Assembly (NCBI RefSeq): GCF_000513935.1 | Contig: NZ_AZUY01000006.1 | Location: forward strand, 62,001 to 126,000 | Direction: 5' to 3' | Length of the DNA stretch: 64,000 nt | Source: Mesorhizobium sp. WSM3626 | GTDB lineage: Bacteria > Pseudomonadota > Alphaproteobacteria > Rhizobiales > Rhizobiaceae | In this document: piece by piece, positions 50,473-54,106 of the stretch | Layout: each line of letters opens with the position of its first letter | How positions within the stretch are numbered: position 1 is the stretch's first letter | Notes under the pieces: model-generated | What the model was told of the DNA's origin: nothing | What the model saw: only the letters and a program-made list of their open reading frames with translations | Databases searched by the model: none | Made by a program: the position numbers and the translations under genes

Positions 50473-51837
50473 CTACAGCAGAGTGCCGCGCAGAATGACC
50501 AGCGCCACTGAGAAATAGATCACCAGTCCGGTGACATCGACCAGCGTGGCGACGAACGGCGCGGATGCGCTGGCGGGGTCGAAACCGACCCGTTTCAGGG
50601 CGAAAGGCAGCATCGACCCCGACAGCGAGCCGAAGGTGACGATGCCGACCAGTGCGGCGCCGACAGTCGTGGCGATCAGCGGCCAGTGCGGGCCATAGTC
50701 GTAGAAGCCCATATATTGCCAGAGCGCGATGCGGCAGACGCCGACGACGCCGAGCATGGCGCCGAGCACGAGACCGGTAGGCAATTCGCGCAACGCCACC
50801 CGCCACCAGTCGCGCAGGCCGATCTCGCGCAGTGCCAGCGCACGGATGACCAGCGAGGTCGCCTGCGAGCCGGAATTGCCGCCGGAGCTCATGATCAGCG
50901 GGATGAACAGCGTCAGCACGATCGCTTTCTCCAGCTCGCCCTCATAGCTTTGCATCGCATTGGCCGTCAGCATCTCGCTGATGAACAGCGCGCAGAGCCA
51001 GCCGCCACGCTTCTTGATCATGGCGAGGAAGCTCATCTTCATATACGGCTCGTCCAGAGCCTCCATGCCGCCGAAGCGATGCACGTCCTCCGTGGTCTCC
51101 TCGATCATCGTGTCGATGATGTCGTCGATGGTGACGATGCCGAGGATCTTGCCGTGGTCGACGACCGGAACGGCGAGCAGATCGTATTTGGAGATCGTCT
51201 GCGCCAGGTTTTCGCGGTCGATCAGCGGGCTGACCGTCACCGGCATGCGGTCGGGCGCCACCGACAGGATCGAGTCGTCCGGCTCACCGGCGATGAGCCG
51301 ACGCAAGCCCGTCGACCGCACCAGGAGGTGTGTTTGCGGATCGACGATGTAGATTGCATACACGGTCTCGCGCGTCCGCTCGACCTTGCGGATGTAATCG
51401 AGCGTGCGTCCGACGGTCCAGTCGGAGGGAACGCTGACGAACTCCGTCGTCATGATCGAGGCGGCGCTGCCTTCAGGATAGCCCAGAATGGAAAGCAGGG
51501 TCGCGCGTAGCGGCGGCACCAATGCGCCGAGCAGCTCGGAGCGTGCCGGATCTTCGAGCTCGCGCAGGATGTCGGCCGCGCGGTCGACCGACATGGCGGT
51601 GAGCAGCTTGCTCGCCTTGGGACGGGGCAGGGCCTCCGCCAGTTCGGGCGCGCCCTCAAGCTCAGGCTGATCGAAAATCTCGACCAGCCGTTCGAAGGGT
51701 ACGGCGCAAAGCAGCTCCGTCGCGGTTTCGCGCGATTCATGATTGAGCGCCTCGACAACGTCGGCGACGTGGTCATTGGCAAGGATGCAGGCGATGGCGA
51801 TGGCCTCGTCGTCCGCTACCGGGGAAAAATCGTTCAT
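50473..51837 (-). CDS. mgtE: Magnesium transporter MgtE
   Basis: The 454-residue MgtE channel has the cytosolic N-terminal domain (about 1-130; superhelix of short helices), two CBS domains (about 140-260; SIMTTEFVSVPSDWTVG and AVPVVDHGKILGIVTIDDII), and a C-terminal membrane domain of five hydrophobic segments with PLIMSSGGNSGSQATSLVIR near 313-332, the pore motif. The N and CBS domains sense Mg2+ and gate the pore. A structured leader precedes the ribosome site. Confidence 0.95.
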   Translation of the reverse strand: MNDFSPVADDEAIAIACILANDHVADVVEALNHESRETATELLCAVPFERLVEIFDQPELEGAPELAEALPRPKASKLLTAMSVDRAADILRELEDPARSELLGALVPPLRATLLSILGYPEGSAASIMTTEFVSVPSDWTVGRTLDYIRKVERTRETVYAIYIVDPQTHLLVRSTGLRRLIAGEPDDSILSVAPDRMPVTVSPLIDRENLAQTISKYDLLAVPVVDHGKILGIVTIDDIIDTMIEETTEDVHRFGGMEALDEPYMKMSFLAMIKKRGGWLCALFISEMLTANAMQSYEGELEKAIVLTLFIPLIMSSGGNSGSQATSLVIRALALREIGLRDWWRVALRELPTGLVLGAMLGVVGVCRIALWQYMGFYDYGPHWPLIATTVGAALVGIVTFGSLSGSMLPFALKRVGFDPASASAPFVATLVDVTGLVIYFSVALVILRGTLL

Positions 51838-51849
51838 GGTTCACTCCTT

Positions 51850-51897
51850 GCCGTCCGGCAGGACATGAACCATTCAGGTCACGTCTAGGCGGACGGC
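51850..51897 (-). promoter_or_regulatory. Structured 5' leader of mgtE
   Basis: In the mgtE transcript GCCGTCCG (51890-51897) pairs with CGGACGGC (51850-51857), forming an 8-bp outer stem. Inside it GACGTGA (51879-51885) pairs with TCATGTC (51862-51868) through seven pairs including one G-U. The ribosome site AAGGAG follows within four bases. The position fits translational control, but the fold is not a known magnesium riboswitch to my reading. Confidence 0.5.
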
Positions 51898-52108
51898 GGT
51901 TGCGTTCGACTGTGACTGTCGCCAGGCATGGCGCGGTGACCTTTCCGCTTGCGGGTTCGCTTTTGACTGTCTGCAAGCCGGCGCAACATAGGAGCGCGCC
52001 TTGCCGAGTCAATCGCGGTGAGGAAGGAAAACAGTGCCGAACGGCGCCGATCGCGAGACTGTGATCACCGTGTGCCGTTCAACGCGACAAGTCCCGGTGA
52101 CGTCGTCG

Positions 52109-54001
52109 TTATTTCTGCTTCAGCCGACGCGAGAACCGCGTCCATTTGTCCTCTACCGGCCTTGGCTGGGCCAGGATCGTGGTGAGTTCGAGAGGCAGGC
52201 TCGGGGCGAGCGGCTTCTTCGTGGCGACGCCGTCGGCAATCAAGACCATCGAGTGGTAGAACTCGGTGCCGGCAGCCGATCTCGGCGCCACGGCTTCGTG
52301 CATGACACTGATCACCGTCACATCCGGGCAGTTGTCCTTGATGGCCTGGTGGAAGGCAATCTTGCCGTCAGGGTCGAGAGCACCGGTCGCCTCATCGAGG
52401 AACAACAGTCCCGGCTGCTGCAGTATGATACGAGCCACCACCAACTTCTGTTTCTGGCCGCCCGACAGGACCTGATCCCAGCTTTTGCCCTCGCGGCTTT
52501 CATTGGCCATGTGTTCGATGAAATCGCCAAGGCCAGCCTTGTGCAGCGCCGACGCGACCTGGGCATCGCCATGATCGCGTTCGGAGCCGGGCAGGCAGAC
52601 CAGCTGCTTCAGTGATACCTGCGGCAGCTTGACCTCCTGGGCGGCATAAAAACTCTTCACGCCCTCGGGGAAGACGATAGTGCCGCGGCCGTAGGGCCAC
52701 AAACCGTTGATCGCCTTGATCAGCGAGGTCTTGCCGCAACCGGATTCGCCCTTCAGGAAGGTCCATTCGCCGCGCCGGAAGCGCAGGTTGGCGGAGCTGA
52801 GGAATGGCGTCGCGTCCTCGCCCTGATGCGCCAGCTCCAGCTTCTGGATGGTCAGGCCGAAAACCGGATTCTGGCTGGCGTAGTGGAAGTCGGAACGGCC
52901 GCTCTGGCTGTAGAATTCCTGTGGGTGCTGGACATTCTCGATCGCGTTGGCGAGCTCCGTCACACGCTGGCTATTGGCGCGAAGCGTGGCGATGGCGGGC
53001 ATGACGTGAATGAACCACGAACACTGGCTGATGAGTTGGCCCACCATTTCAGAGCCGGTGATGTAGCCTTTATAGTCCAGGCGGCTGTGGATGAACGGCA
53101 CCAGGCCAGGAGCATAGGCCACAATACGGGCGCCGATGAAATTGTAGATCAACTCGAACGACATATAGCTGGTGTTGACGACATTCAGCCGTCCCCAGGT
53201 GCGATCGATGTCGACATAGAGCCGGTCGTGCATCATTTTCTGCACGCCCTCGCCATGTGAGGCGGCGACATGGAAGCTGCGGCGCAGAAATGTCGTCAGT
53301 TCGCTACGATAGCTTCCCTCGGCCTTCTGCATGCGAATATTGAGACGTTCGAGCAGGCTGCCGAGCTTGACCGCGATCCAGGTGTTGAGGGGCACGTAAG
53401 TGGCAACCGCGAGGAGGGCCAGAACAGCGCTGCCATAGCTGCCAAGAAACTCCAGACCTTTGACCTCCACCGACGACTGCAGCAGGTTCTGGCCGATAAA
53501 GTAGAGCGAAGTCGCCAGCCCCAGCACGCCCATGGCGAGGCCGATCGCACCGCCGGTCATGTCCTTGATCGATTCCTGGATGCGCTGGTCGACATTGTCG
53601 GGCGCAACGATGCCGCCGTCCGCGGAACCATGTTGAGCATGGAAATGAGTATGGTTGCCGTCGAGCAAGGCCTGGTTGAATTTGTCATTCAGCCAGCCAC
53701 GCCATTTGCGGTGCAAGGTTGCCGAGACGAGATTGCGAATACCGGTGAAGCCGGCATCCTTGAGCAGGACGAGCAGCACCAGCACGCCGGCGTTGGTCAG
53801 GATTGTCTCCAGCGGACGGGTGTTGGCGGCGTCGTGCAGGAAGGCAATTGAATTCACCAATTCGCCCGAAGCCATGGCGAACCACACGCTGGCCTTACTG
53901 GACAGCGCGGTGAGCAGCGCGATCACCAGCGTCAGCGTCCAGGCTTCCTTCCAGCGGTCCGAGACCCAGTAGGCCCGCATGAGCCCCCAGAAATTGCGCA
54001 T
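52109..54001 (-). CDS. BacA/SbmA-like ABC transporter with fused ATPase (BclA/ExsE type)
   Basis: This 630-residue protein has an N-terminal ABC_membrane_2 region (about five hydrophobic segments to residue ~390, with LVSATLHRKWRGWLNDKFNQ near 90 and DNVDQRIQESIKDMTGG near 133) and a C-terminal ATPase: Walker A GESGCGKTSLIKA near 425, signature SGGQKQKLVVARI near 520, Walker B GLLFLDEATGALDPD near 537. This is the BacA-related half-transporter family (for example BclA, YddA, ExsE) that moves peptides or very-long-chain acyl compounds as a homodimer. The ATG at 54001 is used; a TTG at 54106 could add 35 residues. Confidence 0.82.
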   Translation of the reverse strand: MRNFWGLMRAYWVSDRWKEAWTLTLVIALLTALSSKASVWFAMASGELVNSIAFLHDAANTRPLETILTNAGVLVLLVLLKDAGFTGIRNLVSATLHRKWRGWLNDKFNQALLDGNHTHFHAQHGSADGGIVAPDNVDQRIQESIKDMTGGAIGLAMGVLGLATSLYFIGQNLLQSSVEVKGLEFLGSYGSAVLALLAVATYVPLNTWIAVKLGSLLERLNIRMQKAEGSYRSELTTFLRRSFHVAASHGEGVQKMMHDRLYVDIDRTWGRLNVVNTSYMSFELIYNFIGARIVAYAPGLVPFIHSRLDYKGYITGSEMVGQLISQCSWFIHVMPAIATLRANSQRVTELANAIENVQHPQEFYSQSGRSDFHYASQNPVFGLTIQKLELAHQGEDATPFLSSANLRFRRGEWTFLKGESGCGKTSLIKAINGLWPYGRGTIVFPEGVKSFYAAQEVKLPQVSLKQLVCLPGSERDHGDAQVASALHKAGLGDFIEHMANESREGKSWDQVLSGGQKQKLVVARIILQQPGLLFLDEATGALDPDGKIAFHQAIKDNCPDVTVISVMHEAVAPRSAAGTEFYHSMVLIADGVATKKPLAPSLPLELTTILAQPRPVEDKWTRFSRRLKQK

Positions 54002-54106
54002 CGAGGATACCGGCGTCAAATGCGACTGCCCTGCGGCGTCGCGGTGTAGTCCATCCGGTACTGACTCTTGCGATCGTCTGCCGATCCGAATCACGATCCC
54101 GCCCAA

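Follow-up and report, generated by a model that had tools for sequence, protein, structure and literature searches.

Introduction

The M-box (ykoK) Mg2+ riboswitch (RF00380) controls mgtE-type genes. Mycobacteria reportedly combine an M-box with an upstream ORF (uORF), and attenuators of mgtCBR are said to operate in Salmonella. In translational attenuators of the ermC type, the ribosome on a leader peptide picks between two hairpins, one of which hides the Shine-Dalgarno sequence (SD) of the gene. According to the accessible parts of the sources, poor translation of the mgtL and corL uORFs at low Mg2+ turns mgtA and corA on, and MgtL carries the destabilising run EPDP with Glu2 and Asp4 (PMC11282234, PMC11552253). 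The accessible part of a 2024 report describes the mgtE motif (SRC-65-1) as a strong riboswitch candidate, reported in Thioalkalivibrio only (PMC11109978). No description of alphaproteobacterial Mg2+ sensing via mRNA leaders was found in the literature searched. Among the matches listed there was no report on a leader peptide or uORF of mgtE, mgtA or corA in rhizobia or other alphaproteobacteria, most subscription papers lying outside the scope of the search, and the main text of the S. meliloti Ribo-seq paper PMC10117765, as far as accessible, contains neither 'mgtE' nor 'magnesium'.

Here we analysed the mgtE leader in a 64,000-nt stretch of DNA from Mesorhizobium sp. WSM3626 (the window) and its relatives in other genomes. 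A preliminary description had reported two nested stems before mgtE and had read them as possibly a compact Mg2+- or protein-responsive translational switch specific to Rhizobiales. That interpretation as a whole is partly supported by our analysis, which suggests that ribosomes reading a leader peptide may be used to sense magnesium.

Results

The mgtE locus and its two stems

The features of the locus are collected in Table 1. The mgtE product scored 319 bits against TIGR00400, for which the cut-off is 233. The predicted promoter has 9 of 12 consensus matches (0.1 expected) and is the sole sigma-70-like site in 51700-52300; counted from it, the mgtE leader would be roughly 140 nt long. The preliminary description presupposes a transcription start before the stems, and the predicted promoter does lie upstream of them. 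No intrinsic terminator was found on the mgtE strand in 51700-52300. In some genus relatives (e.g. G046, G003) about 100 extra nt stand between the promoter block and the leader, at window position ~51960-51970, and the promoter block is still matched there in two-piece matches. Within these extra nucleotides, L027, L047 and others have a AATCGAAACCGATTTTCGGGGTCATGCGCTA-like sequence that looks like a small repeat element. On the same strand upstream of mgtE, and 271 nt before it, is a 665-codon ORF (52109-54106, minus strand), which we take to be a fused ABC transporter of the SbmA/BacA-like kind.

Table 1. Positions of the features of the mgtE leader in the window.
Feature	Position	Strand	Basis
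mgtE, Mg2+ channel, 454 aa	50473..51837	minus	TIGR00400, PF01769, PF03448, CBS all above cut-off
P2 3′ arm GUGAACC, last SD base and SD-start spacer of mgtE	51838..51844	minus	covariation, swap test
mgtE Shine-Dalgarno AAGGAG	51844..51849	minus	sequence
P1 3′ arm, adjoins mgtE Shine-Dalgarno	51850..51857	minus	fold and covariation
Inner stem 3′ arm UCAUGUC, overlaps P2 5′ arm	51862..51868	minus	sequence, fold
P2 5′ arm GGUUCAU	51865..51871	minus	covariation, swap test
Inner stem 5′ arm GACGUGA, begins with last base of uORF stop	51879..51885	minus	sequence, fold
uORF, 14 codons, leader peptide MPGDSHSRTQPPSA, stop TAG	51885..51929	minus	pattern search, leader comparison
P1 5′ arm, from the third base of uORF codon 11 through the first of codon 14	51890..51897	minus	covariation
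Block of rare codons 5-8, AGT CAC AGT CGA, with free codon 6 and near-invariant CGA at codon 8	51906..51917	minus	codon tables
Probable uORF ribosome site GGAAAGG, 10 nt before uORF ATG	51940..51946	minus	sequence
Predicted sigma-70-type promoter TTGACT-N16-TATGTT	51985..52012	minus	consensus scan

Both nested stems are present, in exactly the interval first given for them (51850-51897). On the mRNA strand the outer stem pairs GCCGTCCG with CGGACGGC over 8 bp, and the inner stem has 7 bp including one G-U. The four-base gap reported between the stem and AAGGAG does not exist; the stem abuts AAGGAG directly. A 66-nt stretch folds at -30.6 kcal/mol, compared with -17.3 +/- 2.7 for 200 dinucleotide shuffles (z -4.98, 0/200), and folding with longer flanks gave z of -2.5 (4/200 shuffles) and -3.8 (0/200).

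The statement that the fold is not an M-box was borne out: Rfam gave no M-box match in the mgtE leader at a strict or a permissive threshold. As a candidate identity, RF00380 was rejected after cmscan gave no covariance-model match (window at gathering score; 51780-52050 at E<=5; 16 relatives). No family of Rfam 15 matched the leader, and besides tRNA elsewhere just chance-level matches were returned.

A conserved uORF with near-invariant rare codons

The 5′ arm of the 8-bp stem falls inside the 14-codon uORF. In 80 mgtE loci (L002-L076 from Mesorhizobium and close kin; L077-L081 from Bosea, one MAG and three Methylobacterium), conservation judged by eye is higher within this arm and upstream of it than in the loop. 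A uORF of the MPGDSHSRTQPPSA type, M-[P/S]-x-D-S-(x)-S-R(CGA)-xxx-P, was found in the window and in 80 of the 80 named mgtE loci with a wider pattern, and in 77 of 80 with a narrower one. The pattern specified codons 1-4 and demanded a stop in frame no more than 30 codons on, so the stop is present by selection; codons 5-8 were not in the pattern.

Codon tables were made for 76 Mesorhizobium-lineage leaders (window included) and 43 distant leaders. CGA stands at codon 8 in 76/76 and 41/43 of them, respectively. AGT is found at codon 5 in 75/76 and 40/43 and at codon 7 in 76/76 and 33/43, and codon 12 is CCG in 76/76 and 35/43. The third base of codon 11, which is the first base of P1, is G in 76/76 and 41/43. 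Codon 6 is free and is wholly absent in 5/76 Mesorhizobium-lineage and 5/43 distant leaders, and some leaders elsewhere have gained one or two codons. The Mesorhizobium-lineage uORF ends at TAG (27) or TGA (49), after 13 to 16 codons. Both AGU and CGA are wobble-read codons. AGT makes up 5.2% of the Ser codons and CGA 4.7% of the Arg codons in a set of 45 long window ORFs selected by G+C3. That AGT and CGA are conserved at codons 5, 7 and 8 though rare in the window argues that not only residues but also codons or bases are constrained.

The early residues of the peptide usually include one Pro and one Asp (MPSDS/MPGDS), and the run is richer elsewhere (MPDDSSR, MSDDDSSR). The corA leader in one genome encodes MPTDPDSSR, with CGC in place of CGA. 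A destabilising run of the mgtL type would be weak here, because most leaders have one acidic residue early. GGA/AAGG-like letters are seen by eye, uncounted, in many leaders at a spot similar to that of the probable uORF ribosome site. This site, AAAGGUCA, can pair with UGACCU downstream of the uORF stop. The segment AGGUCAC in the same region (51935-51941, minus strand) is complementary to GUGACCU (51874-51880) just after the stop, so uORF initiation itself might be under pairing control.

Two covarying helices, P1 and P2

P1 is the 8-bp stem of the preliminary description, and it joins uORF codons 11-14 to a segment near the mgtE ribosome site. P2 joins the SD/start spacer of mgtE to a segment after the uORF stop. 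The stems are not the compact, self-contained element first proposed: the outer stem competes with a second helix, and the last codons of the conserved uORF supply its 5′ arm. It is the outer stem that is widely conserved; the inner 7-bp stem belongs to the Mesorhizobium lineage.

Covariation in homologous mgtE leaders, named at the outset as the check on the stems, exists for P1 and P2 among leaders of genomes of the order. It was scored in alignment A2, which holds 35 leaders from outside the Mesorhizobium lineage, aligned with MAFFT without regard to structure. A2 leaves out that lineage and leaders with long or degenerate spacers (L122, L124, L159, L161, L169 and Methylobacterium L079-L081). 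Leaders L121, L125, L128, L129, L133, L134, L137, L139 and L140 are absent from A2, the codon tables, the swap test and the ribosome folding. In A2, P1 (in the ORF GCCGUC, near the SD GACGGC, each with variants) is paired in 87.9% of cells, with two-sided changes in 6/8 pairs and a covariation score of 0.344 against 0.132 in shuffled alignments (0/500) and at most 0.091 when the arms were slid. Its pairs 54-125 and 55-124 (A2 columns) are unpaired in 16/34 and 15/28 of the rows with letters. P2 (GGCUCACC with GGUGAGCC) is paired in 92.0% of cells, with two-sided changes in 5/8 pairs (reached by 3/500 shuffles) and a covariation of 0.209 against 0.142 (0/500). P3, the inner hairpin of distant families, is 79.2% paired and scores 0.279 against 0.146 (0/500); its two-sided changes in A2 (4/7 pairs) are no better than those of shuffles (306/500). 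A third alignment of non-mgtE leaders (A3, MAFFT) was too gapped, and no counts were taken from it.

In the swap test, each leader's region was scored against the arms of other leaders. The test was given 43 mgtE and 28 other leaders and used 38 and 26 of them, with L079, L081, L122, L130 and duplicates left out. For the 38 mgtE leaders, the own P1 arm scored 19.1 against 15.7 when permuted (0/20,000) and exceeded the foreign mean in 32/38; for P2 the values were 19.2 against 17.2 (0/20,000) and 31/38. The 26 leaders of other genes had not been used in defining P1 and P2. Among them P2 scored 20.5 against 17.5 (0/20,000), with the own arm ahead in 25/26, and P1 scored 16.4 against 14.8 (11/20,000), with the own arm ahead in just 17/26; here as in the covariation scores, the controls leave shared ancestry in. 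The best P1 helix begins 8 nt after the CGN codon in 33/38 mgtE leaders and 22/26 leaders of other genes.

Within the Mesorhizobium lineage, all eight P1 pairs form in 70/76 leaders. The seventh pair is lost in L050, L067, L069 and L071, and an uncompensated mismatch falls among the first six pairs in L007 and L075; the P1 arm CGGGCGGC of L063 and L072 pairs fully. The inner stem, GACGTGA with TCACGTC or TCATGTC, is found in 62/76 leaders. The central P2 pair in this lineage (n=76) is C-G in 42, U-A in 18, U-G in 16 and C-A in none. The P1/inner-stem hairpin of Mesorhizobium uses bases that P2 also needs, and only one of the two can form at a time. Judged by these pairings, a leader hairpin would cover the SD and start of the controlled gene, as in attenuators of the ermC type.

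Folding with a ribosome on the uORF

Leaders were folded with RNAfold, with the ribosome represented by an unpairable footprint and the start region taken from 12 nt before the mgtE start codon to its end. In the window without a ribosome, the start region was unpaired with a probability of 0.38, or 0.60 with longer flanks. With the footprint front at +13, it was unpaired at 0.52-0.74 with the P site at codons 1-7 (0.73 at codon 7), at 0.36 at codon 8 and at 0.16 from codon 9 on. With the front at +16, the step came one codon earlier, and CGA in the A site already closed the start (0.25-0.26). The exact codon of the switch thus varies with the footprint. The step at codon 8 in the window scan places the predicted switch on or beside the near-invariant CGA. 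A programmed stall in the leader ORF may occur, the one pointer to it being this predicted switch position at codons 6-8.

For 70 distinct Mesorhizobium-lineage leaders, the +13 means were 0.52 at codon 7, 0.25 at codon 8 and 0.21 at codon 14. The corresponding means of 41 distant leaders changed little in prediction (0.44 at codon 7, 0.39 at codon 8, 0.35 at the end). In 61/70 Mesorhizobium-lineage and 34/41 distant leaders, a ribosome at codon 5 left the start more open than one at the last codon. Compared with RNA carrying a terminating ribosome, ribosome-free RNA was the more open in just 48/76 and 26/41 leaders, or 39/70 and 27/41, in two runs. By these counts, an early paused ribosome would open the start more reliably than an absent one.

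The prediction of two exclusive folds coupled to uORF translation is thus clear for the window and for the average of its lineage, with a small effect in distant families. The effect is small there because P2 together with P3 often beats P1 at equilibrium. A purely thermodynamic switch for all species was rejected, being unsupported by the footprint folding outside the Mesorhizobium lineage. For distant families, a co-transcriptional kinetic choice or a contact between P1 and the P3 loop must be assumed, and this is the weakest part of the argument.

Spread of the leader

Of 397 genomes drawn from the order, 58 have a close MgtE ortholog (E 5e-154 or better), seven in the genus of the window (itself included) and 51 in others. 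The leader was found at 53/58 of these orthologs: 50 have a match to the covariance model R1 directly upstream (E<=1e-5), and three more have readable uORFs (G338, G260, G452). At five of the 58 it was not found (G373, G357, G510, G517, G306). By eye and pattern, 45 of the 51 distant orthologs have a clear uORF and one has a degenerate one (L159); the uORF is present in L121, L125, L128, L129, L134, L137, L139 and L140, and L133 has none. R1 was built from 33 of the 51 distant mgtE leaders together with L077 and L078, which match by construction; the other 17 of the 50 mgtE matches and 28 non-mgtE matches are not part of it. The searches of order and class genomes used stricter filters, which lose weak matches.

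In the class, 11 of 385 sampled genomes gave a match at E<=0.01, two of them belonging to the order (G000, G260). Just one of the nine outside the order is clear (G850, E 4.6e-8), and it precedes an ABC permease. Named carriers of the mgtE leader outside Mesorhizobium are Pseudaminobacter, Aquamicrobium, Bosea and Methylobacterium. It also stands on plasmid records of Aureimonas (E 9e-11), Methylobacterium bullatum (E 1.5e-4) and Sphingomonas (E 2.2e-4), the last weakly scored yet readable. Leaders before an mgtA operon were found in Shinella (E 3.4e-15) and Paracoccus (E 4.9e-7). The readable copies before mgtA of Paracoccus (Rhodobacterales) and mgtE of Sphingomonas, both on plasmids, contradict the proposed restriction to Rhizobiales. 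At two Phyllobacterium mgtA loci, the P2 part alone scored (E 0.015, 0.069) and no such uORF was seen.

Genes behind the leader

R1 had 78 matches in the order (E<=1e-5), 50 before mgtE, two before mgtA operons, one before a corA operon and 25 before other genes. A conserved short uORF is therefore found in the leaders of all three Mg2+ transporter genes. In the two mgtA operons, an ORF of ~100 codons is followed by a P-type ATPase whose best match is to the magnesium-translocating families NF011702/TIGR01524, the sequences being fragments that score below the full-length cut-offs. The ORF between leader and mgtA (L188, L203, L216) has ~94-105 codons in L188 and L203 and an NPxTGRxECRW-like motif; the one ORF tested, that of L203, had no Pfam match. 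In the corA operon (L206), a 69-aa membrane protein precedes CorA, which scored 164 bits and above the cut-off with PF01544, and 179 with TIGR00383, below its cut-off of 201.

Fifteen of the 78 matches (L182-L186, L189-L196, L199, L170) directly precede a protein of 64-99 residues that has a single probable membrane helix and the motif FxPxxxxH. Three of these proteins were tested and had no Pfam match above cut-off; we regard them as a candidate family of small Mg2+-linked membrane proteins. The 69-aa protein before corA in L206 resembles this family. Three matches precede DUF1003 proteins (L200 tested, PF06210; L201 alike by eye; L202 by first residues). The position of DUF1003 directly behind the leader suggests a Mg2+ link for this uncharacterised family. 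ABC permeases follow three of the 78 matches (L187 tested, PF00528; L197 and L198 alike by eye). An ABC permease of ~535 aa (L172, L187, L197, L198, L208 and L211) stands behind the leader or a weaker match of it in several families, once outside the order; PF00528 was tested for L172 and L187. Two matches precede members of the low-affinity iron permease family (PF04120 by test in L207, with which L212 agrees fully over the part read), and two precede proteins that look outer-membrane-like by eye and had no Pfam match in their first 100 residues.

Discussion

We consider it likely that the leader is a Mg2+-responsive leader-peptide translational attenuator, which would control mgtE by Mg2+ supply. 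By computation, the ORF is conserved, two helices covary and overlap in Mesorhizobium, a switch position is predicted, and three unrelated Mg2+ transporter families are associated with the leader. From these we infer translation of the uORF, Mg2+ as the signal, pausing or drop-off as the sensing step and the on/off direction. Mg2+ is named mainly because the genes or operons behind 53 of the 78 matches encode Mg2+ importers from three unrelated families. Since the outer stem takes its 5′ arm from the end of the conserved uORF, the likely sensor is the translating ribosome and not an RNA aptamer or a protein site. Of the proposal of a translational switch tied to Mg2+, both the translational output and the tie to Mg2+ are probable, the leader being common to mgtE, mgtA and corA; for the proposed aptamer or protein sensor, a translating ribosome is likelier.

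In the proposed mechanism, a ribosome would start on the 14-codon uORF. When Mg2+ is sufficient, normal translation would pass codon 8, cover codons 11-14 and open P1; the freed GGUUCAU would then pair with the SD/start spacer of mgtE (P2) and turn mgtE off. At low Mg2+, the ribosome would pause or drop off within the first 7-8 codons, owing to the early Pro/Asp residues and the wobble-read AGU and CGA codons. With the ribosome held early, P1 (and the inner stem in Mesorhizobium) would form and keep the P2 segment away, and the mgtE start would be open. The anatomy of the leader points to occlusion of SD and start as the predicted output, not to Rho-dependent termination.

An unlikely alternative of opposite sign is that P1 docks on the loop of a P2/P3 hairpin, so that a pseudoknot holds mgtE off and a ribosome running through the uORF opens it. 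The P1 3′ arm does sit in the apical loop of P3 in distant families (A2), and P2+P3 is often the predicted minimum-energy fold even where P1 is possible, nested folding being unable to score pseudoknots. However, in Mesorhizobium the P1/inner-stem hairpin and P2 exclude each other through shared bases, and P2+P3 still covers the start once P1 is removed, which means that the start would stay closed if P1 alone melted. It is about equally improbable that the attenuator senses another cue, such as general translation stress, a tRNA or tRNA modification for the AGU and CGA codons, or another metal. The 25 of 78 matches before genes without a known Mg2+ role, including the low-affinity iron permease family and ABC permeases, fit such a cue, but the sharing of one leader by mgtE, mgtA and corA argues against it.

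Rather less probable is a ligand- or Mg2+-binding riboswitch whose core, AGCGACAGU(NNN)AGUCGA, coincides by chance with part of an ORF, with no role for the peptide. Conservation at codons 3-5 and 7-8 does extend to third positions, and by eye CGAC/GUCG in the codon block could form a 4-bp hairpin. Yet codon 6 is unconstrained and missing as an entire codon from 10/119 leaders, the other length changes seen in the block are whole codons except in the degenerate L159 (2 extra nt), and the third base of codon 2 varies. Moreover, the 80/80 named loci passed the requirement of an in-frame stop within 30 codons, no Rfam family matched, and in Methylobacterium, where the hairpin is not possible, CGA is still in frame. 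That hairpin is itself a possible reason for the conserved codons, since most leaders could form it, but it is broken in Methylobacterium and interrupted in Bosea. Incidental pairing in a dense intergenic region, to which the richness in G+C might lend itself, is hardly credible in view of the shuffle, covariation and arm-swap tests.

We return to the leader-peptide attenuator. A wider proposal, tentative when all its parts are taken jointly, is an alphaproteobacterial Mg2+ regulon under one cis-acting leader peptide, comprising mgtE, the mgtA operon, the corA operon, the single-helix membrane proteins of 64-99 residues, DUF1003 and the ABC permease. Here the ribosome would gauge Mg2+ by decoding the near-invariant, wobble-read CGA after M-P-x-D-S-(x)-S, and P1 would lie 8 nt downstream so that decoding this codon throws the switch. 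If the three unrelated importer families do share one leader-peptide switch, it would by association flag the small membrane protein, DUF1003 and the ABC permease as newly Mg2+-linked and would offer a system for studying how ribosome speed at given codons reports an ion.

Comparison with known systems

Like the M-box, the leader described here is a putative regulatory leader of an mgtE-type gene; unlike it, neither the window nor 16 relatives matched RF00380. The ermC-type attenuators differ in having an antibiotic as inducer and an unrelated peptide and fold. The Thioalkalivibrio mgtE motif, compared by its description in the accessible part of the source, is likewise a structured leader with the SD and AUG of mgtE at a stem base, but it is confined to that genus (PMC11109978). 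There are parallels with mgtL/corL of E. coli and Salmonella as the accessible parts of the sources present them: a short uORF before a Mg2+ transporter gene, two exclusive leader folds, and poor uORF translation turning the transporter on, the folds and this logic both being predictions in our leader. Like MgtL, the peptide has an early Pro and Asp (Pro2 and Asp4 here), and Asp4 is common to both. By the same sources, mgtL and corL act through Rho-dependent termination, whereas the predicted target here is the gene's own ribosome site. Conserved CGA/AGU codons and one leader type for mgtE, mgtA and corA also set our leader apart. The two are alike in logic and apparently unrelated, with no sequence kinship seen by inspection. 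As far as searched, the leader is thus an undescribed, distinct family of a known kind, the leader-peptide attenuators, and is most likely Mg2+-responsive. If so, a single leader-peptide switch that serves Mg2+ importers of three unrelated families across an order would be a counterpart of mgtL/corL and the M-box.
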